From Clostridia bacterium (GTDB lineage: Bacteria > Bacillota > Clostridia > Christensenellales > Borkfalkiaceae), in the NCBI GenBank assembly GCA_017886895.1, contig JAGHJD010000045.1, positions 1 to 49,526 on the forward strand: a DNA stretch of 49,526 nucleotides. The letters are read 5' to 3'. The translations under genes were made by a program, and so were the position numbers. The notes beneath the pieces were generated by a model. That model saw only the letters and a program-made list of their open reading frames with translations. It was not told the origin of the DNA and searched no databases. How positions within the stretch are numbered: the stretch's first letter is position 1; each line of letters opens with the position of its first letter. Positions 1,660-44,160 of the stretch are shown here, piece by piece.

Positions 1660-1688
1660 TTTACTTTCTAATTTCTGTCAGTTATAAT
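1660..1688 (+). promoter_or_regulatory. Promoter of the amino-sugar operon
   Basis: TTTACT and TATAAT are separated by 17 bp. A transcript would start near 1695, about 24 nt before the ATG at 1719, which rules out the 1620 start in the ORF track. No later promoter or terminator is obvious before 9585, so this one may drive six genes. Confidence 0.65.
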
Positions 1689-1718
1689 AAAGAAAAATAT
1701 ATTGCGGAGAAACTTTTT

Positions 1719-22456: not shown

Positions 22457-22572
22457 TTTTGTCGGACTATTTGGGTGACCTCGTCGAGCGCGGCGAGTAT
22501 GACAGGACGGCGGCGATCGAGACCGCGCTGGACGTGTGCTATTTCAATATAAAGAGAAGGCTCGGCTTATGA
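22457..22572 (+). pseudogene. uxaC (glucuronate isomerase) C-terminal remnant
   Basis: The frame encodes ILSDYLGDLVERGEYDRTAA...DVCYFNIKRRLGL and ends by ATGA overlap with uxuA. This matches the family's C-terminal end (the L-x-x-x-L-G-x-x-V-E-x-G-E pattern, then C-[YF]-x-N-x-[KR]), and uxaC commonly precedes uxuA. More than 400 residues are missing. The remnant and the uxuA 5' fragment form one artificial 52-codon ORF (22414-22572). Identification is by recall of the family pattern. Confidence 0.65.
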
Positions 22573-23603
22573 AAATGACCTTTCGCTGGTACGGGGAGGG
22601 CGACAGCATCTCCCTGCAATACATAAAGCAGATCCCGAACATGTCGGGGGTAGTGACGGCGGTGTACGACACGCCCGTGGGCGGGGTGTGGGAGGAGAGC
22701 AAGATCGCCCGCCTGAAAAGCCTCTGCGACAAGGCGGGGTTGGAGATGGAAGTCATCGAGTCGGTGCCCGTGCATGAGGATATCAAACTGGGCAAACCTT
22801 TCCGCGATAAACTCATCGCGAACTACGCGCAGACGATACGGAACCTCGGCAAGTTCGGGGTGAAGTGCATCTGCTACAACTTCATGCCCGTGTTCGACTG
22901 GTTCCGCACAGACCTGCACTATGTGCAGGCAAACGGCGCGGAGTGCCTCGCGTACAAGGAGGCGGACTTCCGGAAGCTGGACAAGCGCAACCTGCGCCTG
23001 CCCGGCTGGGACGAGAGCTACACGCCCGAACAGCTGAGCGGATTGCTCAAAGAATACGAGGGCATGACGCACGAACAGCTCTTTGAGAACCTCGTGTATT
23101 TCTTAAAGGGCGTCCTGCCCGCGTGCGACGAGACGGGGATCAACATGGCGATCCACCCGGACGATCCGCCGTGGGACATCTTCGGGCTGCCGCGCATCGT
23201 GGGGCGGGAAGCGGACTACGACAGGCTGTTCGCCGCCGTACCGAATAAGCACAACGGCATCACCTTCTGCACGGGGAGCCTGGGCGCGGGCAGGTTCAAC
23301 GACCTGCCGAAGATGGCGGCAAAGTATGCGGATAGAATCTACTTCGCCCACCTGCGGCAACTCAAATTCGTGAACGAAACGGACTTCTACGAGAACGGGC
23401 ATCAGACGAACTGTGGGAGCGTGGATATCTATGCCATCGTAAAGGCGCTTGTGGAGAACGGGTTTGACGGGTACGTCCGCCCCGACCACGGCAGGAACAT
23501 CTGGGGCGAGGACGGAAAGCCCGGGTACGGCTTATATGACCGCGCGCTCGGCGCGGCGTATCTGAACGGCATGTTCGAGGCGGTGGAGAAGGACAGGAAA
23601 TGA
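22569..23603 (+). CDS. uxuA: Mannonate dehydratase
   Basis: A protein of about 344 aa that dehydrates D-mannonate to 2-keto-3-deoxygluconate in the glucuronate pathway. The start MKMTFRWYGEGDSI, then VVTAVYDTPVGGVW, CYNFMPVFDW, HPDDPPWDIFGLPRI, TFCTGSLGAG and YVRPDHGR are all typical of UxuA. The ORF track start at 22536 lies inside the uxaC remnant. ATG 22569 (overlapping the remnant's stop) or ATG 22575 is better. It is the first intact gene of a GC-rich operon. No clear promoter is seen between the terminator at 22390 and this start. Confidence 0.93.
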   Translation: MKMTFRWYGEGDSISLQYIKQIPNMSGVVTAVYDTPVGGVWEESKIARLKSLCDKAGLEMEVIESVPVHEDIKLGKPFRDKLIANYAQTIRNLGKFGVKCICYNFMPVFDWFRTDLHYVQANGAECLAYKEADFRKLDKRNLRLPGWDESYTPEQLSGLLKEYEGMTHEQLFENLVYFLKGVLPACDETGINMAIHPDDPPWDIFGLPRIVGREADYDRLFAAVPNKHNGITFCTGSLGAGRFNDLPKMAAKYADRIYFAHLRQLKFVNETDFYENGHQTNCGSVDIYAIVKALVENGFDGYVRPDHGRNIWGEDGKPGYGLYDRALGAAYLNGMFEAVEKDRK

Positions 23604-28276: not shown

Positions 28277-29290
28277 GTGTTTTTCAAAAAGTATGAAAAA
28301 AATCCCATTCTTGTTAAAAACGAGGCGAACGATTGGGAGAGCCTGTGCGTCCTGAACCCCGCCGTCATCTATGACGACGACGGCAAGTTCAAGATGCTTT
28401 ACCGCGCGGCGGGGAACGACGAGACGCATTACATCCATCTCGGGCTCGCGGAGTCGGAGGACGGTTTTCACTTTGAGCGCATGAGCGATTCCCCCGTGCT
28501 CTCGCCCACGCCCGACAACTACGATTCGGGCTGCATCGAGGATCCGCGCCTGATCAAGATCGGGGAGTGGTACTACCTGACCTACGCCTCCCGCGCATAC
28601 GCGCCGGGACAGTACTGGAAGGCGGGCTGGAAGTTCCTCGGCGACCCGCCCGAAGGCGGCCCGCGGTTCCTCTGCGAAAATTCTTCGCTCACCAGCCTTG
28701 CGATCAGCCGCGACCTGCGGCACTGGAAGAAACTCGGGCGCATCACCGATTCCCGTTTTGACGATAGAGACGTCATCCTCTTCCCCGAAAAGGTAAACGG
28801 CAAATGGGTGAAACTCTCGCGCGGCATGGAGCGCTGCGGCGAGGGGTATCCGAACAAAAATCCCGCGATCTGGATCAGCTTTTCGGACGACATGATGGAG
28901 TGGGACAACTACACCCTCCTCATGCAGGGCGAGCAGCCCTGGGAGGACAAGAAGATCGGCGGGAGCTGCCCGCCCATCAGAACGGAGAAGGGCTGGTTCT
29001 TCATCTATCACGGCGTGGCAAACAGCGACGGTGCGTACCGCGTCGGCGCGGTGCTCCTCGACCTCGACGACCCGACGAAGGTGCTCGCGCGGACGAAGGA
29101 CTTCCTTATGGAGCCCGAATTCGACTTCGAGACGCAGGGCTTCTACAACGGGTGCGTGTTCCCGACGGGCAACGCGGTCGTGGACGGGACGCTGTATGTG
29201 TACTACGGCGCGGCGGACAAGAATATCTGCGTCGCGACCTGCGATTTCGATGAGCTTTTGGACTATCTCACCGTGAACTGCAAAAGATAA
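28277..29290 (+). CDS. GH130-family glycoside phosphorylase/hydrolase
   Basis: 337 aa, five-bladed propeller enzyme of family GH130, members of which mostly phosphorolyse beta-mannosidic bonds to give mannose-1-phosphate. Motifs are NPAVIYDDDGKFKMLYRA, GLAESEDGFHF, CIEDPRL, FIYHGV and GCVFPTGN. No signal peptide, so it is cytoplasmic. It begins at GTG with AGAGGTGG upstream. It opens an operon with a CUT1 importer, so it probably processes the imported oligosaccharide. GH130 also contains hydrolases and other linkage specificities, so the substrate is not fixed. Confidence 0.9.
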   Translation: MFFKKYEKNPILVKNEANDWESLCVLNPAVIYDDDGKFKMLYRAAGNDETHYIHLGLAESEDGFHFERMSDSPVLSPTPDNYDSGCIEDPRLIKIGEWYYLTYASRAYAPGQYWKAGWKFLGDPPEGGPRFLCENSSLTSLAISRDLRHWKKLGRITDSRFDDRDVILFPEKVNGKWVKLSRGMERCGEGYPNKNPAIWISFSDDMMEWDNYTLLMQGEQPWEDKKIGGSCPPIRTEKGWFFIYHGVANSDGAYRVGAVLLDLDDPTKVLARTKDFLMEPEFDFETQGFYNGCVFPTGNAVVDGTLYVYYGAADKNICVATCDFDELLDYLTVNCKR

Positions 29291-29302: not shown

Positions 29303-30655
29303 ATGAAAAGATTTGCAAAAATTCTGTGCGCGCTTCTGGCGGCGATCCTGCCGCTGGGCGCGTTTGCCGCCTGCGGCGGCGCCGCGTCGGACGTGCTGTA
29401 CGTTCTCTCGTTCAAGCCCGAATACGACGAGATCTTTGAAGAGGTGAACCAGATCTTTCTGGACGAGCACCCCGAGATGAGCTCCGTCGACTACCGCACG
29501 GTGGATACGAACAACTACAACTCCGTGTTCACCTCCCGCATCCAGAGCGGGTACCTCGACGTGTTCACCTCCGAAGTCACCTACATGATGCAGGGCTCGA
29601 ACAACTACATGGAGCCGCTCGAACACAGGGACTACATGGACGACGTGAAGGACGAATACCTCACGCTCGGCAGTTTTTACGACCCCTCCGAAGGCGGGGA
29701 GGCGGAGCTTCTGACCATGCCCATCGAGCGGGTGGCGAACGTCGTCTACTACAACAAGGACATTTTCGAGGAGTACGGGCTCAGCGAACCCACGACGTGG
29801 GAAGAGTTCTGCTCGGTCTGCCAGACGTTCAGCGACGCCACTAAATATCCCGTTGCGGGCAAGAGCAGGATCGAGTCTCCCATCATCTTCGGCGCGCGCT
29901 CCGAGTGGCCCGCAATGGCTATTTTAAACTCCGTCGTGGCGGACGTCATCGGCATCAACCAGCCCGACTTCTTCGACGAGATCGTCAATTACGACACGAA
30001 TACAAATATCCGCTTCAACAACGCCAACTGGGTCGAGGTCTTTGAAAAGACGCAGCAAATCGGGACCGACTACGTTGACAGCGACATCTACGGGCTGGAT
30101 TATTCCTTTGCCGCGACCTATTTCTCGATCGGCAACACGACGAACAACTCGTGGTATCCGATGATGATCGACGGCACGTGGGTCAATTCGCAGATCACGG
30201 CGGAGTTCGAAGTGGGCGCGTTCGCGCTGCCCGCCGTCAGCGACCCGACCAACGCCGAGGGAAAGAAGAACCTCTCCGTCAAGACGGGCGCGACCCTCTC
30301 CGTGTTCAACCGCTCCAACAAGAAGGACGCCGCGCAGGATTACATTGAGATCTTTTTCCGCGACGAGATCTATCAGAAGTTCGTGGACTTTGCAAAGACG
30401 CCCTCCGTCAAGGAGACGGTCGAACAAACGGACACGCTCGTGAACAGCATCTTCGACGAGAACAAATATACCTTCGTCGAGGCGTACGATTCGCGCATGC
30501 CGCGTTATTTCCCGCTCGTCTCCGCGTCCGAGGTCGTTGCGCTCATGAAGGGGCAGATTACGGCGCAGACGGTGGCGGACACCCTGCAGAACCAGGTGGA
30601 GCTGAACAAAGTCGACTGGCAGGAATACACGCAGCTTTCGCACACGAAGAGCTGA
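29303..30655 (+). CDS. Sugar ABC transporter solute-binding lipoprotein
   Basis: 450 aa, CUT1-type binding protein. The signal peptide ends at the lipobox FAAC (Cys24). The body shows VLYVLSFKPEYDEIFEEVNQ, VFTSEVTYMMQGS, VVYYNKDIFEEYG and LSVKTGATLSVFNRSNKK, typical of maltose/oligosaccharide binding proteins. It follows the GH130 gene by 12 bp with a GGAGG site and is followed by two permeases. It is unrelated in detail to the larger LplA-like protein at 18952. Confidence 0.92.
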   Translation: MKRFAKILCALLAAILPLGAFAACGGAASDVLYVLSFKPEYDEIFEEVNQIFLDEHPEMSSVDYRTVDTNNYNSVFTSRIQSGYLDVFTSEVTYMMQGSNNYMEPLEHRDYMDDVKDEYLTLGSFYDPSEGGEAELLTMPIERVANVVYYNKDIFEEYGLSEPTTWEEFCSVCQTFSDATKYPVAGKSRIESPIIFGARSEWPAMAILNSVVADVIGINQPDFFDEIVNYDTNTNIRFNNANWVEVFEKTQQIGTDYVDSDIYGLDYSFAATYFSIGNTTNNSWYPMMIDGTWVNSQITAEFEVGAFALPAVSDPTNAEGKKNLSVKTGATLSVFNRSNKKDAAQDYIEIFFRDEIYQKFVDFAKTPSVKETVEQTDTLVNSIFDENKYTFVEAYDSRMPRYFPLVSASEVVALMKGQITAQTVADTLQNQVELNKVDWQEYTQLSHTKS

Positions 30656-30668
30656 GGAGGGAGGCGCA

Positions 30669-31616
30669 TTGAGGACGATCAAACAAGAGAGCGGCGGGAT
30701 GCGGACCATGAGAAAGAGCAGGCTGAAGACGACGCCGCTGGTCAACCCGTATGTGGCGATTGCGGCGACGCTGCCCGCGCTCCTCAGCATCTTTGTGCTG
30801 GCGATGCTGCCCGCGGTCATCAACCTTGCGATCAGCTTTACCGACTATCACGGCGTGGGGCAGCCCTTCGAGTTCGTCGGGTTTGAGAACTTTGTCCGCG
30901 TCTTTCAGGTGCAGAACGCCGCGGTCGGCGTGTGGGATTCGCTGCTCAACACCCTCGTCTTTTCGGTGTGCGTGGTGCTGATCCAGCAGCCCCTCTCGCT
31001 GGGCATGGCGCTCATCGTCAACCGCAAGTTCAAGGGGCGCTCCTTCTTCCGCGCACTGTACTTCATGCCGACCATTCTCGGCGTCTCCGTCGTCGGCTTT
31101 ACCTGGCAGCTCATGTTCGACCCCGTTTCGGGCCCGATCGCGACCCTGCTTTCGCGGTTCGGTACGTCCTCCGCGCTTCTGGGCGAGGAGGGGCTGAGCA
31201 TGGCGCTCGTCATCATCGTGGCGATCTGGGCGAACTTCGGCTATGCGATGGTCATCTATATCGCGGGGCTGTCCAACATTTCGGAGGACGTGCGCGAGGC
31301 GGCGCAGCTCGACGGCGCGGGTTCCTTCAAGCTGTTCTGGTACGTGACGCTGCCGCTGCTCAAGAGCACGCTCGCCATCAACTTCTGGATCTCCATTTCG
31401 GGCACGCTCTCCATGTACGACATCATCTACGTGCTGACCAACGGCGCCGCGGGCACGACGACGCTCGCGCTGTATATCTTCAAGCTGGCGACGAACAGCT
31501 CCTCCAACCAGGGGCAGGCGGCGGTGCTGTATATCTACTTCTCCGTCTTCGTCACCGCGGTCATGCTCATTTTCAACTTCCTGTTCCGCAGAAAGGAAAA
31601 GGAGGTGAAGGCATGA
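30669..31616 (+). CDS. Sugar ABC transporter permease
   Basis: A membrane protein of about 300-315 aa (MalF type) with six helices and the coupling loop EAAQLDGAGSFKLFWYVTLP. The TTG at 30669 has a GGGAGG site 4 nt away; ATG 30699 or 30708 would drop a basic N-terminal stretch and are alternatives. The stop overlaps the next start (ATGA). Confidence 0.92.
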   Translation: MRTIKQESGGMRTMRKSRLKTTPLVNPYVAIAATLPALLSIFVLAMLPAVINLAISFTDYHGVGQPFEFVGFENFVRVFQVQNAAVGVWDSLLNTLVFSVCVVLIQQPLSLGMALIVNRKFKGRSFFRALYFMPTILGVSVVGFTWQLMFDPVSGPIATLLSRFGTSSALLGEEGLSMALVIIVAIWANFGYAMVIYIAGLSNISEDVREAAQLDGAGSFKLFWYVTLPLLKSTLAINFWISISGTLSMYDIIYVLTNGAAGTTTLALYIFKLATNSSSNQGQAAVLYIYFSVFVTAVMLIFNFLFRRKEKEVKA

Positions 31617-32479
31617 AAGAGGGTGCCGTCAAAGTAAAAAAACTGCGCAAAGAGCCGGTCTGGGTGACGATCCTGTGCACGGCAGCGCTCATCCTCATGG
31701 CGCTCGTCATGGTCTTCCCGCTGCTGCTCGTCCTGAACGTCTCTTTAAAGACGCAGACGGAGTTCAACCAGAACCCTTCGGGCATCTTCGACTGGAAGCC
31801 GATAGGGGAGCTGTTCTCCAACTATTCCTACGCCTTCGAGCGCATGAATATCTTCGGCAGGCTGCTGTACACCGTGGCGATGACGGTCGGCTCCGCGCTC
31901 ATCTCCTGCGTCGTGGTCACGCTGGTGGCGTACCCGCTCGCGCGCAACCACTTCAAGGGTTCGGGCAAGGTGTTCGGGTTCATCCTCATCTCCATGTTCT
32001 TACCGGGCAGCCTTGTCGCGAATATCTTCCTCGTGCAGAACCTCGGGCTGTACAACAATCCCGTCGTGCTCATCATCTTCTGGGGGTTCGGCGGGCTGAC
32101 GGTGTATATCTTCATGACCATGCAGTTCATCTCGGAACTGCCCAAAGACCTCGACGAGGCGGCGTTCATCGACGGCTGCGGCTACTTCCGCTACATCTTC
32201 CAGTTCGTCATCCGTCTGAGCCTGCCCATCCTCTCCACGGTGTTCATCTTAAAGCTCGTCGGCGCGTGGAACGACTTCCTCACGCCGTACATCTACCTGA
32301 TCGAGGACAGGTTCATGACGATCTCGACGGGTCTGTTCGCCTTCCGCGGGCAGTTCTCGTCCAACTGGCCGGGGCTCGCCGCGGCGACGTTCTCGGTCGC
32401 ACTGCCCGTCATCATCCTGTATGTGTTCCTGCAAAGGTACATCATCGAAGGCATGGCGGCGGGTGCGCTGAAAGGATAG
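31613..32479 (+). CDS. Sugar ABC transporter permease
   Basis: 288-aa MalG-type partner permease with about six helices. The coupling loop is EAAFIDGCGYFRYIFQFVI. The ORF track start (30932) is a run-on in the frame of the previous gene. ATG 31613 has AAGGAGG upstream and overlaps the previous stop. As in the first importer, no ATPase gene accompanies it. Confidence 0.92.
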   Translation: MKEGAVKVKKLRKEPVWVTILCTAALILMALVMVFPLLLVLNVSLKTQTEFNQNPSGIFDWKPIGELFSNYSYAFERMNIFGRLLYTVAMTVGSALISCVVVTLVAYPLARNHFKGSGKVFGFILISMFLPGSLVANIFLVQNLGLYNNPVVLIIFWGFGGLTVYIFMTMQFISELPKDLDEAAFIDGCGYFRYIFQFVIRLSLPILSTVFILKLVGAWNDFLTPYIYLIEDRFMTISTGLFAFRGQFSSNWPGLAAATFSVALPVIILYVFLQRYIIEGMAAGALKG

Positions 32480-32484
32480 GTGCC

Positions 32485-33537
32485 ATGAAGAAAGTGACGT
32501 TTCAGACGATCGCCGATTCCCTCGGCGTATCCAAGGGGCTCGTCTCCCTCGCCATGCGCGACAAGTACGGCGTGAGCGAGGAGATGCGCTCGAAGATCGT
32601 TTTGAAGTCCATCGAGCTGGGCTACGAATTCAAGAATGCGGCAAAGGGGCAGAAGCGGAACATAAAACTGCTTGTCAAGAACATGGGCATCCTCAACGAG
32701 GATTTCTGGCGGCGGTGCATCCTCGGCATCGAGTCGGAGTGCAACCGCGAAAAGCTCTCCTTCTCCATCCTCGGCTGGATGAGCATCAAGGGAAGCGAGG
32801 ACTTTTCGGTCAGCCTGATGGACGAGAAGTGCAGCGGCGTCATCGTGCTCAACCAGTGCCAGCCCGCCGTGGTGGAGAAGATCGACCGCCTCGGGCTGCC
32901 CGTCGTGTTCGTGGACATGATCAATCCGCTCGACATCCCGTCCGACCAGGTCATGGCGAACAACTTCAATGCGGGCATGCAGGCGGTGCGCTACCTGCTC
33001 GACAAGGGGCACCGCGAGATCCTGCTCTTCGGGAACACGGAGTACAGCTACTCCTTTTTGCAGCGGTTCTACGGCTGCGCGAAGATGGTCAAGCGCGCGC
33101 AGCGCGTAGGCGAAAAGATCGTCTGCCACAAGATCGCGGACTGCGAAAAGACGCACCTTATCGACGGCGTGTATCAGGACGACGAGAGCGACCTGTGCAA
33201 CGACGCGGCGCTGTGCCGCTTTCTCGACGGCGGGGAGAAGGTCACTGCGGTTGTCTGTTTCAACGACAGCATCCTGCGCCGCGTGCTGTGCATCTTCAAG
33301 AAGCGGGGCATCCGCGTCCCCGAGGACATCTCCCTCATCAGCATCGACAACGTGCAGTGCTCGGAGGACAATGACGTGACCTCCGTCGACATTCCCAAAA
33401 CGGAGCTGGGCATACAGGCGGTGCGCCTTCTCATGGACCGCCTCGAAAACAGGCGGAGCAATTCCGTCAGTCTCGAACTCAATACGACGATCGTCGAAAG
33501 AAATTCTGTAAAGGAGCTGCATCATGAAAAAATTTAG
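32485..33537 (+). CDS. LacI-family transcription regulator
   Basis: A 350-aa regulator with an N-terminal LacI helix-turn-helix (VTFQTIADSLGVSKGLVSLAM, about residues 3-23) and a periplasmic-binding-protein-like sugar domain. It lies inside the operon it probably controls, after the importer. The ORF track start (31675) is spurious; ATG 32485 gives the standard N-terminus. Its last 14 bases overlap the start of the next gene, which has its own AAGGAG site within this gene. Confidence 0.9.
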   Translation: MKKVTFQTIADSLGVSKGLVSLAMRDKYGVSEEMRSKIVLKSIELGYEFKNAAKGQKRNIKLLVKNMGILNEDFWRRCILGIESECNREKLSFSILGWMSIKGSEDFSVSLMDEKCSGVIVLNQCQPAVVEKIDRLGLPVVFVDMINPLDIPSDQVMANNFNAGMQAVRYLLDKGHREILLFGNTEYSYSFLQRFYGCAKMVKRAQRVGEKIVCHKIADCEKTHLIDGVYQDDESDLCNDAALCRFLDGGEKVTAVVCFNDSILRRVLCIFKKRGIRVPEDISLISIDNVQCSEDNDVTSVDIPKTELGIQAVRLLMDRLENRRSNSVSLELNTTIVERNSVKELHHEKI

Positions 33538-35491
33538 AGTGCTTTCAGTCATCTTTGCGCTGCTGCTTGCGCTGGGCATTTTCGCCGCCTGCGGCGAAGA
33601 AAAGGATCCCGGCGGGCCTTCCGACCCGGAGACCCCGAATACGGGCGACGAGGAAGAGGAACTCCCCGAATACGACGGGAACGGCAACCGCTACGTAGAC
33701 CTTGTCACCGTGACCGACACGGGTACGACGTACAACGGCATCAACGCCTATATCGACGGATACGCCGACCTTCCCGCCTTCGAGGACGTGCATTCCTCGA
33801 CGGCGTTCGAATTCGGCGACAGGGATCCTGCCGACGTGCTCGGGTTCGTGCATGCGGGCGGGCAGTACAACTTCACCGAACAGCCCTACCTCACCGAGGG
33901 CGCCAACCTCATCGCGCGCGACATCGGTTCGCACGTCATCAAGCTGTTTTTGGGCAGCGACATCGCCGACCAGTACTCCTTCAACGAGACGTGGGGCAGC
34001 CATGACAGCCTTGCGGACCTCGTGCAGGAAGACGAGATCGACGCCGTGTTCAGCCGCGCGGACCTCAATACTTATATCATCGTCACCTACGAGATGGACC
34101 GCCTGCAGTGGGACAGTACCGCTGCCGTTTCGCAGAGCGAGCTTGAACGCGTGCAGAAGGAATTTTCCGACCTGACGACGCACCTCATCCGCGCCTACAA
34201 CGACACGGGCAAGACCTTCGTGCTGCAGAATTGGGAGGGCGACAACGAGCTGCGCGAAGCGCTCGCCAAGACGACGGACGAGACGACGGAGCAGACGATC
34301 ATCGACAACTATATCGCCTACAACAACGCGCGGCAGGCGGGCATCACCGCGGCGCGCGAGGCGCTGTTCGCAACGGGCAGCTATGCGAATATCAACGTGT
34401 ACGGCGCGCTGGAGATCAACTATATCTCCTATGACGCGCCCGAGAAAAAGCTCGTCGACTACGTCGTGCCCCATTCGGATGCGGATCTCTTCTCCTTCTC
34501 CGACTGGTCCACGAGCAATGCGAACCTTGCCAAAGACCTCGCGTATTATTTAAGCAAGATCAACGAGAACGAGGACAGGCAGGGCGAAAACGCCGCGACG
34601 ATGAACGACATCTACCTCGGCGAATACGGCAGGAAGGAGAGCACCGCAGGGGAGGAGAACCAGTTCTCCTACGCCGTCGAGACGGCGAAGATCGCCGTCA
34701 ACGCGGGCGTGCGCTGGGTCTGCTACTGGACGCTCATGTGCAACGAGCGCACGGAGGCGTCCACCTCCCGCCCCGTCAATTCGGATATGGAGGGCTTCTG
34801 GCTCATCAAGCCCGACGGCACGATCACAAAGACGTTCTGGTACTTTAAGGGGCTTTTGGAGGACAAGAACTTCCTCGCGGGCGACGGCGTCTCCGGAGAG
34901 GTGGAAAAGCCCGCGCTCGTGCTGCGCCTGCCCGCAGAGCAGGCGGAGGCAATTCCCTTCCCCGAGAACGAGAGCGATATTCTCTTCTATGACAACTTCG
35001 ACGACGTAGACCTCGACGGGAATCCCGCTCTCGAGCTCAACGAGAAGTGGGAGGACCATTCGGACGGTCTGCAGTACGACCATGTGCGCGCCGCCGACCA
35101 GCCGAAACTCTCGCGCTATTTCGAAAAGTACGGGCTGACCCCCGAGATCGGGTTCACGGTCGTGCAGAAACAGGAGAACAACCCCGAGGAGGAGTACATC
35201 CAGTATGAAGTCGTGCGCGCCTCTGCGGACGCGGAGGGCAAGTTCCTCATCCAGGGATTTTTGTACGACCCGACGCCCAAGTCTATCCTGCGCGTGGACG
35301 GCACGACGAACGGCACCACCTGGGAGACGCTCGAATCGGTGTACGTCATGGACAAGGCGGGCGAGTACGGCTATCTGTACGTCACGACCGTCGTGCCCGT
35401 CGGCTATACGAGCGTGCGCGTGGTGTTCACGAACACGAAGGCGGGGAACTCGTGGGATCCGCTGGTCTGCCGCGTGCTGTTCGTGAAATAA
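33524..35491 (+). CDS. Lipoprotein with putative clan GH-A glycosidase domain and C-terminal beta-domain
   Basis: 655 aa. The lipobox IFAAC (Cys23) predicts an outer-surface lipoprotein, followed by an acidic linker. A TIM-barrel-like domain (about 60-460) has LQNWEGDN (Glu238), NVYGALEIN, VDYVVPHSD and GEYGRK (Glu367), then VCYWTL. Glu238 after Asn-Trp on a middle strand and Glu367 before the last strand match the acid/base and nucleophile layout of clan GH-A. A beta-sandwich region (about 480-655) resembles a carbohydrate-binding or discoidin-like domain. The protein is paralogous to the one at 37168. I cannot place it in a numbered GH family. Confidence 0.65.
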   Translation: MKKFRVLSVIFALLLALGIFAACGEEKDPGGPSDPETPNTGDEEEELPEYDGNGNRYVDLVTVTDTGTTYNGINAYIDGYADLPAFEDVHSSTAFEFGDRDPADVLGFVHAGGQYNFTEQPYLTEGANLIARDIGSHVIKLFLGSDIADQYSFNETWGSHDSLADLVQEDEIDAVFSRADLNTYIIVTYEMDRLQWDSTAAVSQSELERVQKEFSDLTTHLIRAYNDTGKTFVLQNWEGDNELREALAKTTDETTEQTIIDNYIAYNNARQAGITAAREALFATGSYANINVYGALEINYISYDAPEKKLVDYVVPHSDADLFSFSDWSTSNANLAKDLAYYLSKINENEDRQGENAATMNDIYLGEYGRKESTAGEENQFSYAVETAKIAVNAGVRWVCYWTLMCNERTEASTSRPVNSDMEGFWLIKPDGTITKTFWYFKGLLEDKNFLAGDGVSGEVEKPALVLRLPAEQAEAIPFPENESDILFYDNFDDVDLDGNPALELNEKWEDHSDGLQYDHVRAADQPKLSRYFEKYGLTPEIGFTVVQKQENNPEEEYIQYEVVRASADAEGKFLIQGFLYDPTPKSILRVDGTTNGTTWETLESVYVMDKAGEYGYLYVTTVVPVGYTSVRVVFTNTKAGNSWDPLVCRVLFVK

Positions 35492-35510
35492 AGGCATAAA
35501 ACGGAGCGAA

Positions 35511-35534
35511 CCGCCGCCTCCGCGGAGGCGGCGG
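35511..35534. repeat. 24-bp perfect palindrome
   Basis: CCGCCGCCTCCG is followed immediately by its reverse complement. It lies in the short gap between two secreted-protein genes. It is followed by GGAAAAAT and has no T run. Confidence 0.7.
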
Positions 35535-35570
35535 AAAAATACAAGAGAGCTAAAAAAAGGAGGAAGACAG

Positions 35571-36956
35571 ATGAAAAAATTTGCGGTCGCAGTGCTTGCG
35601 GCACTGCTGACGGTCTCCTGCATCGCGGCGGTCCCCGCAGCGGCGGCAGACGGACAGACGTACACCCTGCGCGACGAATTCGGCGCGGCGCCGCTTGCGC
35701 GGACGCTCTCCGAAAACATGGAGCGCACGGAGCTGAACAACGAGCTTTCGGGCTATTCGCGCTACGGGTTCGCCGCGCGCCTCAAGGCGGCGGGCGAGGA
35801 CGGCGCGGACGAGAACAGGGGCTATATCACCTATGACGTGGACGGCGTCACGGAGGCGGAGGTCAGCGCGCTCGTCGCGGAGTCCAACTTCGGCTCCTAT
35901 CACGGCTGGGGCGTTTCGCTCGGCGTGACAGAGGATGCCGCGGGCGTTCCGCTGAACAATATCAACAACATCAACCTCGATCTGATCTATCCCATGTATC
36001 TGAGCGAGGAGGGGCGGCCGTTCATCCATTACAATGACGGCAAGTGGTACGGCTATATCGCCGACCCGAAGTTCAGCTTCATTCCGCAGGATGCGGTCTC
36101 CGATGCGGGCACGAATCTGCGCGCGTTCACCGTTCCCGACGAGGTGCAGGGCGTCTATGACGAAGACGGCATGACGCTCCTGCAGAACGGGTATCTCTAC
36201 CCGATGATCAACCTCGAGTATGCGACGGCGGAGGCGCCCGATACATGGATCCCCATGAGCCTCGATACGGAATCCGGAAACTATGACATCACCTCCGCGG
36301 AGTACGTCGGCGCGGACAAAATGTACGACGTGACGGTCAAGATCTCCAATATCCCCGCCGAGGCGGCGAAGATCCGTATCGGCGCGAACTATATCCGCGA
36401 GACGATCAAGCCCTCTGCGACGGGCGATCTCGAGGCGGACGTGTATCAGGATTTCCCCCGCGCCGCGTCCGATTCGCTGTTCGTCACGGGCGTCCACCTG
36501 ACTCTCGATACCGAGTATACGGGCGGGTTTGAAGAGCTGCAGCAGACGGGCATCGACGCGGATCCCGCGAACATGAAGCGCTACTACGCGTACGGCGAGG
36601 CGTTCAGCGCGGAAGGCCTTGTGCTCTACGACGTGTATAACGGCGGCATCCGCGAGGAGAATGCGGATACCTCCTCCTTCACGGTGGACAGCAGCGCCTT
36701 ATCCCGTATGACCCGGGCATCTACGCGATCAATGTCACGAAGGGTGATTACAGCGACTCGTTCAATGTGCAGGTCTCCGAACCGGATGCGCTCTCGCTGG
36801 ATACCTCCGCGCTCGACCTCGAGATCGCGGCGGGCGAAACGTTCTCCGCCGAAGGGCTGGAGGTCAGCATCGTCTCATCCGTCAGCGGACGCGGCGAGGT
36901 CGCGGTGCCCCTCACGGCGGAACAGTACACCGTCGACGCAAGCGCCGTCAATGTGA
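35571..36956 (+). CDS. Secreted surface protein, N-terminal part, frameshifted near 36700
   Basis: A signal peptide (1-25, ending AAAA-D) is followed by a beta-rich region of unknown family (about 26-310) with repeated YITYDVDG, LDLIYPMYL and GYIADPKF segments, then a group-3 bacterial Ig-like domain (GEAFSAEGLVLYDVYNGG...). The Ig domain should end in a PYDPGIYAINV-type strand, but that sequence is found in another frame from about 36704. In the called frame the last 45 or so residues (MTRASTRSMSRR...) are Arg/Ser-rich nonsense. The real gene is 35571-37171 with a net one-base loss near 36699-36706. This is either a decaying gene or a sequence error. Confidence 0.7.
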   Translation: MKKFAVAVLAALLTVSCIAAVPAAAADGQTYTLRDEFGAAPLARTLSENMERTELNNELSGYSRYGFAARLKAAGEDGADENRGYITYDVDGVTEAEVSALVAESNFGSYHGWGVSLGVTEDAAGVPLNNINNINLDLIYPMYLSEEGRPFIHYNDGKWYGYIADPKFSFIPQDAVSDAGTNLRAFTVPDEVQGVYDEDGMTLLQNGYLYPMINLEYATAEAPDTWIPMSLDTESGNYDITSAEYVGADKMYDVTVKISNIPAEAAKIRIGANYIRETIKPSATGDLEADVYQDFPRAASDSLFVTGVHLTLDTEYTGGFEELQQTGIDADPANMKRYYAYGEAFSAEGLVLYDVYNGGIREENADTSSFTVDSSALSRMTRASTRSMSRRVITATRSMCRSPNRMRSRWIPPRSTSRSRRAKRSPPKGWRSASSHPSADAARSRCPSRRNSTPSTQAPSM

Positions 36957-37171
36957 AAAAGGACGGCACCTATACCGTCAGCGTCACATTCAATGAAGGC
37001 GAAGTTTCGCTCAGCGCGTCCTTCGACGTCACCGTATCGGGCAACGGCGCGGGCAGTGCGGCAGGCGGCGGCGACAATACTGTCTACATCGTCTGCGGCG
37101 TGGTCGGCGGCGTCATCGTCATAGGCGCGGCGGCGGCAGTCATCATCATTCTGCGGCGGAAACATTCATGA
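36767..37171 (+). pseudogene. C-terminal part of the frameshifted surface protein
   Basis: The frame starts inside the broken first Ig-like domain (YAINVTKGDYSDSFNVQV reads from about 36722), then gives a second Ig-like domain (LEIAAGETFSAEGLEV ... GTYTVSVTFNEG) and a membrane helix with basic tail LRRKHS. The ATG at 36767 has no ribosome site and lies mid-strand, so this is not an independent gene. Without it the upstream product would be released rather than membrane-anchored. The stop overlaps the next ATG. Confidence 0.7.
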
Positions 37172-38502
37172 GGAAATTGATCTGTATTTTGCTTGCCTCG
37201 CTGCTTGCCCTGCTTGCAGGGTTTGCACTGGTCGGCTGCGCCGATGACGGCGCAGCCGATACGGGCGGCGGGAACGGAACGGAGCAGGACGATACGCCCG
37301 GCGGAGGGGAGGAGACCGGCATCACCGTGTTTGACAATTCGCAAAACCCGATCGCCGAGCGGCTGGGCATCACCTGCTGGGGGTGCCGCTACATGCCCGA
37401 CCTCGGCGCGGAGGAAAACAGCCTGCTGCGCGGCGCGGAGTATATCCTCGAGGCGGGCGGCAAGGTCATCAAGCTCGCCTGCGGCGACCTCTCCGCGCAG
37501 TACCCGCTGGACGACTGGTCGGGCGTGACCTTCGAGCGCAGCGTCGACGTGTTCCGCCACGACGTGTTCCGCAAGCTCTTTGAAATGGACTTCAAGACCT
37601 TTTTCATCAGCGTTCCCGAGCGCAAAGCCATCAACTTCCGCGACGGCGTGAGCAAAGAGGAGGAGGCGTACGTCGAAGAGGAGTTCTATCGGATGACCAA
37701 GTACCTCCTCGAAACGTATAAGGGCAGCGGCAAGACCTTCATTTTGCAGAATTGGGAGACGGACAACGCGCTCTCCTATTCGATGAACGGCTCGGAGGAC
37801 GACTACCTGCTGCTGTACAGCTATGCGGACTACTTCAACGCGCGGCAGGACGGCATCAACCGCGCGCGCGACGAGTTCGTCATGAGCAAGGAAAAGAACG
37901 TGTACGTGTTCGGCGCGATCGAGGTCAACAAGCTGAGCGATTCGTACACCCGCCCGAAGGCGGTCGATTACGTCGTGCCGAATACCTACTGCGACCTCTA
38001 TACCTATTCGAGCTACGAATATAAGGACAGGGGCGTCGTGAGTTCCGCGCAGGACGTGTGCGATCAGCTCTCGGAGGCGCTCAGGTACTACGCGTCGCAG
38101 CTCCCCGCGGAGGAGAATTATCCGCAGCCCGTGTATTTCGGCGACAGGCGGCTCGCCGTCACCGAGTTCGGCTATCCCGACTACGCGGACGGCTATAAGG
38201 GAGAATGGCAGAAGATGGTCGCCGAAGGACACCTGCTCGCGGCAGAGGAGCTGGGGCTGCAGTACCTCGTGTACTGGCAGCTCTGCGACAACGAGGTCAT
38301 CGGCGACAACGCATCCGCGATCAACCGCCTTTCCCCCGCCGAACTGCGCGGATATACCTTTGCGCCCGGCGATCTGAACGGGTTCTGGCTGCTCCGTCCC
38401 GACGGCGTAAAGACGTACACCTATAACTATTTCAGGCAGGCGATGCTGCAGGATTCGGCGTCGGCAGAGGCGGAAAAGCCGTCCGCGTGGACGGCGTCGT
38501 AA
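37168..38502 (+). CDS. Lipoprotein with putative clan GH-A glycosidase domain
   Basis: 444 aa. The lipobox LVGC (Cys24) is followed by a Gly/Asp-rich linker and a TIM-barrel-like domain (about 60-440): GITCWGCRYMPD, KVIKLACGD, FILQNWETDN (Glu197), NVYVFGAIEVNKLS, VDYVVPNTYCDLYTY, VTEFGYPDYA (Glu333) and YLVYWQLCDNE. The two Glu residues and the motifs around them match those of the 655-aa paralogue at 33524, which supports a shared catalytic role. It lacks the paralogue's C-terminal beta-domain. It starts by ATGA overlap with the frameshifted surface protein. The substrate is unknown. Confidence 0.65.
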   Translation: MRKLICILLASLLALLAGFALVGCADDGAADTGGGNGTEQDDTPGGGEETGITVFDNSQNPIAERLGITCWGCRYMPDLGAEENSLLRGAEYILEAGGKVIKLACGDLSAQYPLDDWSGVTFERSVDVFRHDVFRKLFEMDFKTFFISVPERKAINFRDGVSKEEEAYVEEEFYRMTKYLLETYKGSGKTFILQNWETDNALSYSMNGSEDDYLLLYSYADYFNARQDGINRARDEFVMSKEKNVYVFGAIEVNKLSDSYTRPKAVDYVVPNTYCDLYTYSSYEYKDRGVVSSAQDVCDQLSEALRYYASQLPAEENYPQPVYFGDRRLAVTEFGYPDYADGYKGEWQKMVAEGHLLAAEELGLQYLVYWQLCDNEVIGDNASAINRLSPAELRGYTFAPGDLNGFWLLRPDGVKTYTYNYFRQAMLQDSASAEAEKPSAWTAS

Positions 38503-38740: not shown

Positions 38741-41419
38741 ATGAAGAAGATCATAGCGATTTTGCTGTCGCTGTGTCTGGCGGTCCCCGTCGTGTTCGCG
38801 GCATGCGGCATGTGGTCGGAACAGGCAGACGCGGCAGAGCTGACCGTCGTGACGGAGGGGGGTGACTACGACGTCGTCGTCTACGGTGCGACGAGCGCGG
38901 GCGTCACCGCCGCCATCGCGGCAAAGAAGGAGGGCGTGAGCGTGCTGCTCATCGCCCAGACCGACCTCATCGGCGGGCTTACGAGCTCCGGGCTCGGCGC
39001 GACCGATATGGCGAACGAGAAGGTCGTCGGCGGGCTTTCGTACGAGTTCTACAACCGCATGTACGAGTACTATCTCGACGATGCGGCGTGGACTTCGCAG
39101 ACGCGCGAAGAGTACTTTGAGGCGCTCGGCGTGAATATTTACAGCGGCAAGGACGACGGGCTGCGCATGCAGTGGGTGTTCGAGCCGCACGTGGCGGAAC
39201 AGATCTTCCGCGAGATGCTCGCAGACTACGGCGTGCCCGTCATCTTCAACGAGAGGATCGACCTCGATACGGGCGTCGTCATGGACGGCACGCGCATTCA
39301 GAAGATCGTCACCGAGAGCGGCAAAGAGTTCGGCGCGAAGGTGTTCATCGACTGCTCCTATGAGGGCGACCTCATGGCGGAGGCGGGCGTGACGTACGTC
39401 GTCGGGCGCGAGGCGAACAGCGAGTACGGCGAGACGATGAACGGCATCCTGCCCAACAACGGCGAAGTGGAGACGGCAAGCCCCTTCATCGTCGAGGGCG
39501 ACCCGAACAGCGGGCTGCTGCCCTTCATCGAGGACGGCTCGCTCGGCGCGACGGGCTCTGCGGACAGCCGCGTGCAGGCGTACTGCTTCCGCTTTACGCT
39601 CAGCACCGACCCCGACAACATGGTGCCCATCACCAAGCCCGAAAACTACCACCCCGAGTGGTACGAGACGCGCGCCCGCATTCTGCAGGCGAACCCCGAT
39701 GCGGGAAACGAGCTGACGCTGAGCAAGATGCCCAACAACAAGACGGATACCAACCATGCGGACTTCGTCGGCATGAGCTACGAGTATGCGGACGGCGACT
39801 ACCTCAGCCGCAAGAACATAGAGGACGACCACAGGGACTACGTGCTCGGGCTGCTGTACTTCTATGCCTATGACGAGCGCGTGCCGCTTTCCATCCGCGA
39901 GGAGATGCGCACCTACGGGCTTGCCAAGGACGAATTTACCGAGAACGGCAACTTCCCCGTGCAGATCTACCTGCGCGAGGGCAGGCGCATGGTCAGCAAC
40001 TATGTGATGAGCCAGAGCGACGTCATTTCGGCGTCTATCCCCGGCTCCATTCAGAAGACGACCGCGCCGCATTCGGTCGGGCAGGGGTTCTATTGGTTCG
40101 ATTCGCACCGCGTCTCCTACTTCCTGATCGAGTACAATTCGGGCAGCGGCGTCTCCTACGGGTATCAGACGGACGGCAACTTCTGGCAGTCCCGCAGGGA
40201 TTATCCCATCTCGTATGAGTCCATCCGCCCGAAGAAAGAGGAGTGCGTCAACCTGTACGTGCCCGTCTGCCTCTCCGCTACGCATGCGGCGTACGGCTCC
40301 ATCCGCATGGAGACGACGTACATGATCGTGGCAGAGTCCGCAGGCACCGCCGCGGCGATGAGCGTGCAGGAGATGGAGAGCAACGCCGATTTCTGCGTGC
40401 AGGATCTCAGCTATGCCGATCTTGCGGCGAAACTTGCGATGAACGGGCAGCTCCTCGGCGACATCGTGGTCGACGAAGGCGAACTGACCGACAGCGAGCT
40501 CGCCGTGCTCAAACTCAGCATGTACGACCTGCTCGACGGCGTGAATGCAGACGTGCTGTACACGGCGGTTTCGGAAGAGGGCGCGTTCAATACGCCCGAG
40601 AGCGTGGGGGCGGTGCAGACCGTGCTGTACAACGCGGCGAAGAAGATCGACCCCGAGGCGCAGCTTGCGGACACGCTGGAAGTGCTCACCAAGGGCGGGC
40701 TCTCCTTCAACACTTCGAATTGGGAGGCGCTGTTCTCGGGCGAACTGCCCGCGTCCCTCGCCAAATCGGACGTCATCTCCATTTTCAACCTTGTCACGAA
40801 CCTGTTCGCGCAGGGCATCCCCACCAGCTATATCACGCAGTGGGTGAACTACTTCCATGACAACGGCATCATCGACGCCGAGATGCGCGACTACTTCGAC
40901 GACCACGCCATCAAGGGCGGGACCTGCGATACGCAGGAGACGCGCGCGCTGCTCATCGCAATCGCGCGCACCATCGAGCCGAGCGTCAGCGATGGCGACA
41001 GCGCCCTGCAAATTTATGTGAGCACGGGCATGATCGGAAACACCGCGCAGTGGACGGGCATCTTCGACGGCACGGCTGCACAGGCGAGCGGCTCGAACCT
41101 GAATACGCTGCTCAGCCGCGCGTACAATTACCTTTCCTCCAACGAGAGCAGGTGGCAGGGCAGGATCGGCACCGCCGTCCTCGACTATCTCGTTGAAAAG
41201 GGCGTGCTCGACGAAGCGGACACCGATGCGTACAGCGCGCTGCTTTCGGGCACGCGCGACGGCTCGACCGTTGCGGCGGACACGGCGAAAGCGGTCATCG
41301 TGAACGGCGCGAAATATTTCGATCCCGCGGCGACGGAGACGGACGCGCTCGAAGTGCTTGCGGGCGTCGATGTCGACACAGCGGGTGTTGCGGGCGTCAT
41401 GAGCGGCACGGCGGCGTAA
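38741..41419 (+). CDS. Secreted FAD-dependent oxidoreductase fused to helical repeats, ended by in-frame TAA
   Basis: 892 aa to the stop. A signal peptide with possible lipobox (VFAAC, Cys22) is followed by an FAD_oxidored-type domain (about 44-590): DVVVYGATSAGVTAAIAA (dinucleotide loop 49-54), GGLTSSGLG, FIDCSYEGDL and YLREGRRM. From about 620 a chain of roughly 55-65-aa helical repeats begins. The TAA at 41417 is followed in the same frame by more of the same repeats (41429-42853), so the original protein was about 1370 aa. Relatives oxidise or rearrange sugars or glycan parts, but the function here is unknown. GGAGG precedes ATG 38741. Confidence 0.75.
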   Translation: MKKIIAILLSLCLAVPVVFAACGMWSEQADAAELTVVTEGGDYDVVVYGATSAGVTAAIAAKKEGVSVLLIAQTDLIGGLTSSGLGATDMANEKVVGGLSYEFYNRMYEYYLDDAAWTSQTREEYFEALGVNIYSGKDDGLRMQWVFEPHVAEQIFREMLADYGVPVIFNERIDLDTGVVMDGTRIQKIVTESGKEFGAKVFIDCSYEGDLMAEAGVTYVVGREANSEYGETMNGILPNNGEVETASPFIVEGDPNSGLLPFIEDGSLGATGSADSRVQAYCFRFTLSTDPDNMVPITKPENYHPEWYETRARILQANPDAGNELTLSKMPNNKTDTNHADFVGMSYEYADGDYLSRKNIEDDHRDYVLGLLYFYAYDERVPLSIREEMRTYGLAKDEFTENGNFPVQIYLREGRRMVSNYVMSQSDVISASIPGSIQKTTAPHSVGQGFYWFDSHRVSYFLIEYNSGSGVSYGYQTDGNFWQSRRDYPISYESIRPKKEECVNLYVPVCLSATHAAYGSIRMETTYMIVAESAGTAAAMSVQEMESNADFCVQDLSYADLAAKLAMNGQLLGDIVVDEGELTDSELAVLKLSMYDLLDGVNADVLYTAVSEEGAFNTPESVGAVQTVLYNAAKKIDPEAQLADTLEVLTKGGLSFNTSNWEALFSGELPASLAKSDVISIFNLVTNLFAQGIPTSYITQWVNYFHDNGIIDAEMRDYFDDHAIKGGTCDTQETRALLIAIARTIEPSVSDGDSALQIYVSTGMIGNTAQWTGIFDGTAAQASGSNLNTLLSRAYNYLSSNESRWQGRIGTAVLDYLVEKGVLDEADTDAYSALLSGTRDGSTVAADTAKAVIVNGAKYFDPAATETDALEVLAGVDVDTAGVAGVMSGTAA

Positions 41420-41428
41420 GGCGCGGCG

Positions 41429-42853
41429 ATGCGCAGCTTTTTGGCGGCGCTCGCGGACGCGATCGAAACGACGCCCGTCACGCGGCCTCTCACCGAGAGC
41501 GACATGCAGGTGTTCGAGACGCTCGGCATTCTCACGACCACCGAGACAGAGGGCTATATTGCGGATGCCGTGACGGGTTCCGCTGTCGACGCGACGGCGT
41601 TCGGCGACTTCCTCAGCAAGATCTCCAGCCGTCTGACCGTCTCCGGTTCGACGTATGCGGAGAAGCTGTTCACGGCGGGCGCCATTTCCGAAGTGCAGCG
41701 CGACGCGCTTGCCGCAATGTCCGGCACGCTCGACGGCGCCATGGCGAATTCCATCATCCGCTCGGTCGCGGAGTATGTGGAGGAGAACAACGCGGGGCTG
41801 TCTTCGGAGAACGTGACGTTCCTCACGCAGAACAACATTGCCTCGGCGGATGACGCGCTCGGCTTGGTCTCTACCTTCGGGTTCGTGCCCAAAGAACTTG
41901 CGCAGAAACTCTTTATCGGGCTGGCGCAGTACATCGACGACGCCGACCCCGAAACGGTGACGGATATAAACACGGCGATCGACCTGCTCGCGGACATCAA
42001 CGCGATCAGCAATGCGCAGAGCTGGAAGGACAGCTTTGCGGGCGAGGGTACTGCCGTGTTCGGCAGCGACTGCCTGACGATCGTGAACATCGCCTGCACC
42101 TTTGCGTCGGGCACGCTCGAGGACTACCGCTACCTTGCGGAGAACGGGCATATCACGGCGGAAGAGGCTGTGTACTTTGTGCGCAGCGGCAACACGGGCA
42201 GGACGGCAAATCTGGCGCAGGTCAAGACGCTGCTCTACAAACTCGCCGCGGCGATGGATACGGACGGCAGCGTCTCGCAGGAGAATGCGCAGAGCATTGC
42301 AGACGAATTTGTTTCGTCGGGCGTGACAAGCGGCGCAGACTTCTGGCTCACCGTACTCAACACCTCCGGGGAGACGTGGCAGGTCGAAAACCTGCCGACG
42401 CTGGTCCGCAACGCAACCGTGCGCATCAAAGCGGTGGACGAGAGCGGCGGCGAGATCTCCGTGCTCCCCGACGAAGTGCTCGATTACTTCGTGGAGCAGG
42501 GAATCATCACTGATGACTATAACAGAGATACAGTGAAAGCTGAAGCGCAGGCAGGGAAGACACCATCGAGCAAGAGTGAAGTCAAAAACATGCTCGTCCG
42601 CGCATTCCGCAAGGTTACTGGTTCAGCCGGATTGACGGCGGGGACTATAGAAACGGGTCTTAGCAAATATGCTCGCGATTTCACGTTCAGTGACGATGAC
42701 AGTTTTGAGAACCCTTCCGAGACGCGCACATACTGGTACAGTTTCTTTGCGACTTCGACGGCGGATCTTGCAAGTTTCCCGCTGGACGGCGGCGACTTGC
42801 AGGAGCTGATGATCCGCATCTATGACTATCTGACGGGAGGTGCACAGGCATGA
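41429..42853 (+). CDS. Helical-repeat continuation of the FAD protein after an in-frame stop
   Basis: 474 aa, all in the same frame as 38741-41419, starting 10 nt after its TAA. It has no signal peptide, no ribosome site at the ATG (GGCGCGGCG precedes it) and consists of about seven more repeats of the pattern LL-x-A-x-x-I ... G-I-x-x-x-x-W. The best reading is the 3' half of a gene split by a nonsense mutation. Restart of translation at the close ATG is possible but would leave a cytoplasmic product. Its stop overlaps the next ATG. It has no C-terminal anchor. Confidence 0.6.
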   Translation: MRSFLAALADAIETTPVTRPLTESDMQVFETLGILTTTETEGYIADAVTGSAVDATAFGDFLSKISSRLTVSGSTYAEKLFTAGAISEVQRDALAAMSGTLDGAMANSIIRSVAEYVEENNAGLSSENVTFLTQNNIASADDALGLVSTFGFVPKELAQKLFIGLAQYIDDADPETVTDINTAIDLLADINAISNAQSWKDSFAGEGTAVFGSDCLTIVNIACTFASGTLEDYRYLAENGHITAEEAVYFVRSGNTGRTANLAQVKTLLYKLAAAMDTDGSVSQENAQSIADEFVSSGVTSGADFWLTVLNTSGETWQVENLPTLVRNATVRIKAVDESGGEISVLPDEVLDYFVEQGIITDDYNRDTVKAEAQAGKTPSSKSEVKNMLVRAFRKVTGSAGLTAGTIETGLSKYARDFTFSDDDSFENPSETRTYWYSFFATSTADLASFPLDGGDLQELMIRIYDYLTGGAQA

Positions 42854-44160
42854 AACTGAAGAGAAAGATTTTGGCGGTATTCCTCGCCGTCTGCCTGTTG
42901 GGGACGGTCTCCGCGCTCGGCGTGACGGCGCTCGCCGCCGACGCCGACGAGGTGGTCATCCCCGACGCGACGCTGAAGGCGCAGATCATCGACACGCTTG
43001 AGCTGTCTTCGAGCACGGTCACGGAGGCGGACATGCGCCAGCTCACCGTGCTCGAGACGCCGAACAACGACCCCGCGAGCATGATCACCGACCTTACGGG
43101 GCTGGAGTACGCGACAAACCTGCGCGAACTCAACCTCGACTACAACAAGATCACCGACTTAACGCCGCTGCAAGGACTTACGAGCCTCGAATCGCTGAAT
43201 ATCTCCTACAACAACGGCGCGACGACGGGCACGAGCGGCATCACGGACATCTCCTGCCTTTCGGGGCTGACAAACCTCAAAAGTTTTTCCTCGATCGGCA
43301 ATGAAAACGTGACCGATTACAGCGTCGTGAGCAACTTCAAAAAACTCACCTATCTGAACCTGAGCATCTGCAAGCTGGACGACGTCTCTTTCCTGTCGGG
43401 GCTGACCTCGCTGGAGAGCCTGTACCTGCCTTTCAACGCGGTCTATGACGTGACGCCGCTCGCGGGGCTGACCTCGCTCAAGGTGCTCGCGCTCGGCAAC
43501 AACCTGTTGCAGGACATCTCCGTCGTGCGGAACATGACGGCGCTGACGCAGCTCACGGTCGAGAACAACTACATCGAGGACTTTTCGCCCGTTTTGTCGC
43601 TCTCCGCGATCGAGCGGATGGACCTCTCGCGCAACTTCCTCTCCGACGAGCAGATGGCGAGTATCATGGAGGCGTTCCCCGAGGCGACGATCTACGTTTC
43701 GCCCGTGCTGGACGACGACAAGAAGTCCGAGCTCATCTGCCTCAACGCCTACGAACAGACGCTGAACCCCGGCGGCACCTTCTCGCTCGCGGCGACCGAT
43801 TTTGCGGGCACCGCGCTCGAGGGCGTCACCTGGTCGACCTCCAACGCGGACGTCGCCACGGTGGACGAAAACGGCAGCGTCACGGCGGTCGGGACGGGGT
43901 TCTGTTACATCGGCGCGACCTATAACGGCTACACGCGCAACTGCTCCGTCACCGTCACGACGCCCGAAACCCCGGGCGGAAACACCGATACGCCCGCAGA
44001 GGGCGGCGGGCTGACGGGCGGCGAGATCGGCGCGATCGTTGCGGTCTGCGTCGTCGCGGTCGCGGCGGCAGTGCTCATTGCCGTGCTTCTGAAGAAAAAC
44101 AAAAAGGGCGGCAAGGGCAAAGACGAAACGTCCGAAAAGCACGGGGACGATAAAAACTGA
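42850..44160 (+). CDS. Leucine-rich-repeat surface protein with Ig-like domain and membrane anchor
   Basis: 436 aa. A signal peptide (1-31) is followed by an internalin-like LRR array (about 75-275; LRELNLDYNKITDLTPL, LESLYLPFNAVYDVTPLAG), a BIG2-type Ig-like domain (about 305-372; WSTSNADVATVDENGSVTAV), a PETPGGNT linker, then GGGLTGGEI, a membrane helix and a long basic tail. It likely binds proteins or glycans at the surface. Start by ATGA overlap. The linker and anchor are nearly identical to those of the next gene. Confidence 0.88.
   Translation: MKLKRKILAVFLAVCLLGTVSALGVTALAADADEVVIPDATLKAQIIDTLELSSSTVTEADMRQLTVLETPNNDPASMITDLTGLEYATNLRELNLDYNKITDLTPLQGLTSLESLNISYNNGATTGTSGITDISCLSGLTNLKSFSSIGNENVTDYSVVSNFKKLTYLNLSICKLDDVSFLSGLTSLESLYLPFNAVYDVTPLAGLTSLKVLALGNNLLQDISVVRNMTALTQLTVENNYIEDFSPVLSLSAIERMDLSRNFLSDEQMASIMEAFPEATIYVSPVLDDDKKSELICLNAYEQTLNPGGTFSLAATDFAGTALEGVTWSTSNADVATVDENGSVTAVGTGFCYIGATYNGYTRNCSVTVTTPETPGGNTDTPAEGGGLTGGEIGAIVAVCVVAVAAAVLIAVLLKKNKKGGKGKDETSEKHGDDKN

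Follow-up and report, generated by a model that had tools for sequence, protein, structure and literature searches.

A rare protein family with a predicted clan GH-A barrel, present as a lipoprotein pair beside a GH130 mannoside phosphorylase in a Clostridia bacterium and recurring in phages and haloarchaea

What do two related lipoproteins contribute to a locus that also encodes a GH130 mannoside phosphorylase and a sugar importer, and do they belong to a glycosidase family that already carries a number? The question is raised by a 49,526-nt stretch of DNA from an uncultured Clostridia bacterium (contig JAGHJD010000045.1), referred to below as the window, in which the two proteins, P0001 and P0002, are encoded. 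The explanation that we favour, with a probability of about 0.7, is that both are anchored at the cell surface and act there as glycoside hydrolases, probably retaining ones, whose clan GH-A barrel cuts a beta-mannoside glycan before its import; paralogy, family, conservation of the operon and the lack of library matches are direct results, the fold and the positions of the catalytic Glu pair come from predicted models, while activity, mechanism and substrate are what we infer.

The lipoprotein pair, its operon and the probable substrate

A sequence-only reading of this DNA had placed two paralogous lipoproteins at 33524 and 37168. Both open reading frames were found there (Table 1), and their paralogy was borne out by BLASTP, with 116 of 414 residues identical (28%, 130 bits, E 8e-37), far above chance. 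On inspection, each N-terminus displays a hydrophobic signal up to a Cys (FAAC-GEE in P0001, LVGC-ADD in P0002), and this lipobox-like Cys at the signal end marks both as predicted lipoproteins. All of the motifs named beforehand were recovered in both proteins where expected, with positions given here for P0001 and P0002, respectively: GKTF starting at residues 229 and 188, NWE at 236-238 and 195-197, ARQ starting at 269 and 225, A-E-N at 295-299 and 250-254, VDYVVP starting at 311 and 266, the nucleophile-strand motif as GEYG at 366-369 and as TEFG at 332-335, and YW starting at 401 and 369. A second GEYG of P0001 (613-616), located in its C-terminal domain, is unrelated to the nucleophile motif; this domain can be aligned in the relatives L058 and L026 (blastp over ~600 aa).

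The pair is part of an operon of ~18 kb on the + strand, extending from the GH130 gene (28277) to the SASA esterase gene (46577), whose genes overlap or are mostly separated by short gaps. They are ordered as GH130, sugar-binding protein, two permeases, LacI, P0001, beta-sandwich protein, P0002, FAD oxidoreductase, LRR/Big_2 protein and esterase, and the same order was found in L005 and in L057, the latter from another genus. The closest solved chains to the window GH130 are a 1,2-beta-oligomannan phosphorylase (9fj8, E 2e-58) and a beta-1,2-mannobiose phosphorylase (7fip, E 7e-52). At three positions of the alignment it has a basic side chain (the R of DRD, the R of LSRG and the H of YHG), and in our own mapping these may be taken for the GH130 phosphate site described in PMC4599007.

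Table 1. Coordinates of the operon genes, of the codons of the predicted catalytic residues and of the phage members
Feature	Coordinates	Strand	Details
GH130 mannoside phosphorylase	28277..29290	+	Pfam PF04041, E 7e-52; no signal peptide seen
ABC importer sugar-binding lipoprotein	29303..30655	+	Weak matches to NCBIfam models for carbohydrate substrate binding (TIGR03851, E 1e-8, below cut-off); 77% identical in L005
ABC importer permease 1	30699..31616	+	75% identical, same place in L057; also in L005; resembles the window's other permeases
ABC importer permease 2	31613..32479	+	Found at the equivalent position in L005 and L057
LacI-type regulator	32485..33537	+	N-terminal helix-turn-helix read from sequence; 76% identical in L005, 59% in L057
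P0001, family member A, lipoprotein	33524..35491	+	655 aa; barrel ~90-450, all-beta C-terminal domain ~500-655
Codon of Glu238 (P0001)	34235..34237	+	Predicted acid/base
Codon of Glu367 (P0001)	34622..34624	+	Predicted nucleophile
Surface beta-sandwich protein	35571..37171	+	C-terminal membrane anchor; Big_3 in L005 homologue
P0002, family member B, lipoprotein	37168..38502	+	444 aa; barrel only
Codon of Glu197 (P0002)	37756..37758	+	Predicted acid/base, 2 residues past strand 4
Codon of Glu333 (P0002)	38164..38166	+	Predicted nucleophile on strand 7
Secreted FAD-dependent oxidoreductase	38741..42853	+	PF12831, E 6e-93
Leucine-rich-repeat/Big_2 surface protein	42850..44160	+	
Secreted SASA-type carbohydrate O-acetylesterase	44160..46577	+	PF03629, E 4e-8; 63% identical in L005, 54% in L057
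Phage member	L027:7689-8750		
Phage member	L029:7986-9026		
Phage member	L028:1-894		Truncated

Two of the operon genes are interrupted. The frame of the beta-sandwich protein between the paralogues (35571-37171) is broken near 36.7 kb when compared with L005 and L057 (intact relatives of 538 and 521 aa), and the FAD oxidoreductase, a single ORF of 1373 aa in L005 and of 1359 aa in L057, is split by one in-frame TAA (41417-41419), which may be either a real nonsense codon or an assembly error. The C-termini of the surface proteins encoded at 42850-44160 and 44160-46577 consist of a Gly-rich linker followed by a single transmembrane helix and a basic tail; no clear LPXTG is present, and anchors of this type recur in relatives. 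A separate carbohydrate cluster lies upstream on the same contig, and comprises GH94-like (1620-4235), GHL10 (15758-18955) and D-mannonate dehydratase (22536-23603) genes, as well as a second importer.

The neighbourhood of the pair with GH130 and an ABC importer proved to be both real and recurrent in other genomes. GH130 is found beside the family in four arrangements (the operon of the window, L005 and L057; L058; L025; and L072), and the importer accompanies it. Nine carrier genomes contain ~16 GH130 genes in ~19 Mb, and chance would place a GH130 gene within 20 kb at ~3% of loci, an expectation that ignores the general clustering of glycan genes. In L013 and L014, GH2 enzymes with mannosidase-type domains are located beside the family. 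A lone family member with no GH130 nearby is present in L069-L071 (three genomes of one genus), and the link to mannosides is therefore not universal.

Some neighbours point to modified sugars. In L058, where the family member is accompanied by GH130, it is flanked by two sulfatases (113-1621 and 14030-15508), which suggests a sulfated substrate in that genome. Two URO-D-like (methyltransferase-like) genes are found beside the family in each of the unrelated loci L013 (11025-11975 and 14554-15570) and L025 (3370-4443 and 5816-7012), called by Pfam for L025 only and by resemblance for L013; these neighbours possibly serve methylated sugars.

Given the conservation of the operon in two other genomes and the presence of GH130 in four arrangements, the locus is best read as serving to cut a beta-mannoside glycan at the cell surface ahead of its import. 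The lipoproteins would cut, outside the cell, a beta-mannoside-containing and probably O-acetylated polysaccharide or glycoconjugate, the SASA esterase would take off its acetyl groups, the ABC importer would bring in the pieces, and the cytoplasmic GH130 would release mannose 1-phosphate from them, with the LacI-type regulator in control. We consider it likely that P0001 and P0002 are active glycosidases, and on balance probable that their substrate carries beta-mannosides. If confirmed, this would show how a GH130 locus can be supplied in the absence of a recognised mannanase.

It is conceivable, though we think it doubtful, that the two proteins are GH-A glycosidases whose substrate is not beta-mannan but a host glycoconjugate, such as the N-glycan core (Man-beta-GlcNAc) or sulfated mucin-like glycans. 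Such a substrate would agree with the action of some GH130 members on Man-GlcNAc, with the SASA type of the esterase and with the sulfatases of L058, but no sialidase, fucosidase or hexosaminidase was seen among the operon genes examined, the haloarchaeal and phage members are ill-suited to a role on host glycans, and the window GH130 is nearest by sequence to beta-1,2-mannoside phosphorylases.

Family status, predicted fold and catalytic residues

The sequence-only reading had been unable to match the pair to a numbered family. This holds for Pfam-A, NCBIfam and the PDB sequences. Neither P0001 nor P0002 gave a match above chance in Pfam-A or NCBIfam, none of 14 members matched a Pfam profile at E 1, the GH5 profile (Pfam Cellulase) included, and no PDB chain matched P0001 or P0002 by phmmer with a single sequence up to E 1. 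A profile of 7 relatives retrieved nothing from the PDB at E 10, while a profile of 14 relatives retrieved the GH5 enzyme FnCel5A at E 0.09 and the 20-row profile matched GH5 endoglucanases at E 0.001-0.008, in the latter case only locally, over 65 residues of GEFG...YW (the nucleophile and last strand). We read this match as a trace of common GH-A descent and not as GH5 membership. The GH164 enzyme Bs164, whose chains are present in the PDB, was not matched up to E 10 by profile nor up to E 1 by single sequence, and no relevant published description of such a family was found among open-access papers.

The AlphaFold2 model of the P0002 barrel, built with 7 sequences, reached a pTM of 0.88 and a mean pLDDT of 79.9, and displays eight strands in order, alternating with helices. 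Model Glu148 (Glu197) is located two residues past strand 4 (141-146), model Glu284 (Glu333) within strand 7 (280-285), and model Trp321 (Trp370) just past strand 8 (317-320). The clan GH-A layout proposed from the letters is upheld by this prediction, a (beta/alpha)8 barrel with the named Glu pair at strands 4 and 7. The nearly full-length model of P0001 was poor overall (pLDDT 57) and was left out of the fold search; it has the same strand order, placing Glu238 past strand 4 and Glu367 on strand 7, and its C-terminal domain is all-beta. When the P0002 model was compared with the PDB by Foldseek, the best match was the GH5_4 enzyme 6mq4 (E 1.4e-6, TM 0.54), with GH164 (6t6g, E 2.0e-6), a beta-galactosidase, GH53 and GH2 at nearly equal scores; the top matches were mostly GH-A enzymes, with TM-scores of only ~0.5 and rmsd of 7-9 A. 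Among viral models, phage "glycosyl hydrolase" and GH5 proteins ranked first. The near-equal scores across GH-A families point to a GH-A-like fold without a closest family, and that the modelled fold is GH-A-like we hold with high confidence. Glu197/Glu238 past strand 4 would then act as acid/base, Glu333/Glu367 on strand 7 as the nucleophile of a presumed retaining mechanism, and Trp370 past strand 8 would provide the sugar platform.

Conservation was counted over a 20-row alignment in P0002 numbering, from which L069-L071 and the G1146 fragments (L072), found late, were left out. Glu333 of [TG]E[FYW]G, Arg226, Asp276, Trp370 and Asn375 are invariant (20/20 rows). Glu197 of NWE is conserved in 19 of the 20, with Gln in Halobaculum L022, as is Glu252 on strand 5, with Ser in Halomontanus L023; the acid/base motif reads N-W-E in 18 rows, HWQ in L022 and TSE in L028. 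Because of the Gln in L022 and of SE for WE in phage L028, the acid/base assignment is less secure than that of the nucleophile. The spacing between the two Glu, which had been put at about 130 residues, is confirmed for the pair (129 in P0001, 136 in P0002) but not as a family constant, since loop insertions make it vary from 114 to 173 over 20 members, and a value of about 130 is therefore not diagnostic of the family. The Asn stands two residues ahead of the Glu in N-W-E, and not directly before it; an Asn just before the acid/base Glu is common in clan GH-A, yet not universal, and N-W-E is therefore compatible with clan membership.

The Halobaculum rubrum member (L022:9869-11773), in which HWQ replaces NWE, carries Gln in place of Glu at the predicted acid/base, a natural replacement comparable to that in plant myrosinases. 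Glu252/297 of the GA-E-N motif on strand 5 was considered as a catalytic residue and rejected: in GH-A no catalytic residue lies on strand 5, and Ser takes the place of this Glu in L023.

That P0001 and P0002 are divergent members of an already numbered CAZy GH-A family, be it GH5- or GH164-like or one outside Pfam, NCBIfam and the PDB, appears unlikely. CAZy includes families without Pfam models, which would favour this explanation, as would the weak match of the profile to endoglucanases of GH5 (E 0.001). The GH164 beta-mannosidase, which is among the top Foldseek matches, has a similar Glu spacing (160/297, a distance of 137; PMC7105311), but its Asn-159 directly precedes Glu-160, where a Trp intervenes here, and neither phmmer nor the profile matched it in the PDB. 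The 14 members without a Pfam match, the lack of an NCBIfam match and the spread of structural matches over many GH-A families at about equal scores likewise speak against a numbered family. The pair would instead represent a new sequence family within the known clan GH-A, not a new kind of enzyme; it is absent from Pfam-A, NCBIfam and the PDB sequences, and CAZy or dbCAN may already hold and number it. If confirmed, this would add to CAZy a new family of clan GH-A, one whose catalytic pair can be tested.

It is more improbable still that the two are non-hydrolytic surface glycan-binding or transglycosylating proteins retaining the barrel: the Gln at the acid/base position in L022 and the altered motif in L028 indicate that the site can change, and two paralogues in one operon could be an enzyme and a binder, but both Glu are present in both window paralogues, the nucleophile is invariant, and barrels losing their function usually lose their catalytic residues.

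Distribution and the phage and haloarchaeal members

Twenty full-length relatives, in addition to fragments, were found in Clostridia, as two haloarchaeal plasmid genes and on three phage contigs. They belong to the window's own genus and family (L005, L013, L014, L057 and L058), the same order (L026 and L069-L072, L072 being the family fragments of G1146), elsewhere in the class (L024 and L025), the plasmids of Halobaculum (L022) and Halomontanus (L023), and three viral contigs (L027-L029). Carriers of the family are rare: with the window's genome included, they amount to 4 of 101 near relatives, 6 of 301 genomes in the same family, 7 of 396 in the order, 4 of 391 in the class sample and 1 of 399 sampled from the phylum, this last being the window's own; order-level searches around G205 and G208 gave no further carriers. 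A rarity such as that within the same family would account for the libraries missing it.

In the maximum-likelihood tree, P0001 and P0002 each group with orthologues in L005 and L057, and the duplication is therefore older than the split of these genomes. All three phage members cluster together, adjoining the bacterial proteins L014 small and L025 A, both of which we judge to be without a signal peptide.

The phage and haloarchaeal members are, together with the N-W-E acid/base motif, the unexpected parts of this family. A profile built without phage sequences matched two phage members over nearly the whole length of the profile (E 1.4e-60 and 1.5e-46). Bacterial contamination was rejected as their source, as the neighbours of L027 are portal, SU10-like capsid and other structural-type genes, and L029 comes directly after a beta-helix protein. 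The two phage members that were scanned fall into no PHROGs family, a tblastn search of cultured phage genomes (50,697 records) with P0002, L027 or L029 as the query detected no member, and degenerate DNA patterns for QNWEGDW/N returned from viral contigs only the known loci and chance matches in unrelated ORFs. The phage members are candidate virion glycosidases, and the same fold in phage structural gene modules would, if confirmed, offer glycan depolymerases. A broader reading, which we consider less likely than not, is that of an unnumbered clan GH-A family with N-W-E that might act on beta-mannosides in two uses, pre-import cutting at the surface of Clostridia together with GH130 and virion-associated glycan depolymerisation in those tailed phages whose capsid genes are SU10-like; haloarchaea would hold further copies. 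The neighbourhood of the Halomontanus member (L023:7762-16702) contains sugar isomerase/epimerase and Gfo/Idh/MocA oxidoreductase genes, a set that we take to be the one expected of keto-glycoside pathways.

Comparison with known systems

In its predicted structure the pair resembles GH5, a clan GH-A family: both have the (beta/alpha)8 barrel, an acid/base past strand 4, a strand-7 nucleophile within GEFG and an aromatic residue past strand 8, and GH5 provides the top Foldseek match (6mq4) as well as the local profile match over strands 7-8. It differs from GH5 in having N-W-E in place of N-E-P, in the lack of a Pfam Cellulase match and of detectable sequence similarity over strands 1-6, and in a TM-score of ~0.54. 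The barrel fold, the Glu spacing (137 versus 129-136 in the pair) and the beta-mannoside context are shared with GH164 Bs164, although its PDB chains have no sequence match to the pair. Bs164 forms a trimer, carries extra domains and has a direct Asn-159/Glu-160 acid/base pair (PMC7105311); in place of such a direct pair, the present family has N-W-E.

No GH26, GH5 or GH113 mannanase was seen among the window operon genes examined. The GH130 mannoside-utilisation operons of gut Firmicutes combine LacI, an ABC importer, an intracellular GH130 and an esterase in one locus, all of which are shared by the window operon, whereas its surface-enzyme slot is filled twice by the P0001/P0002 family.
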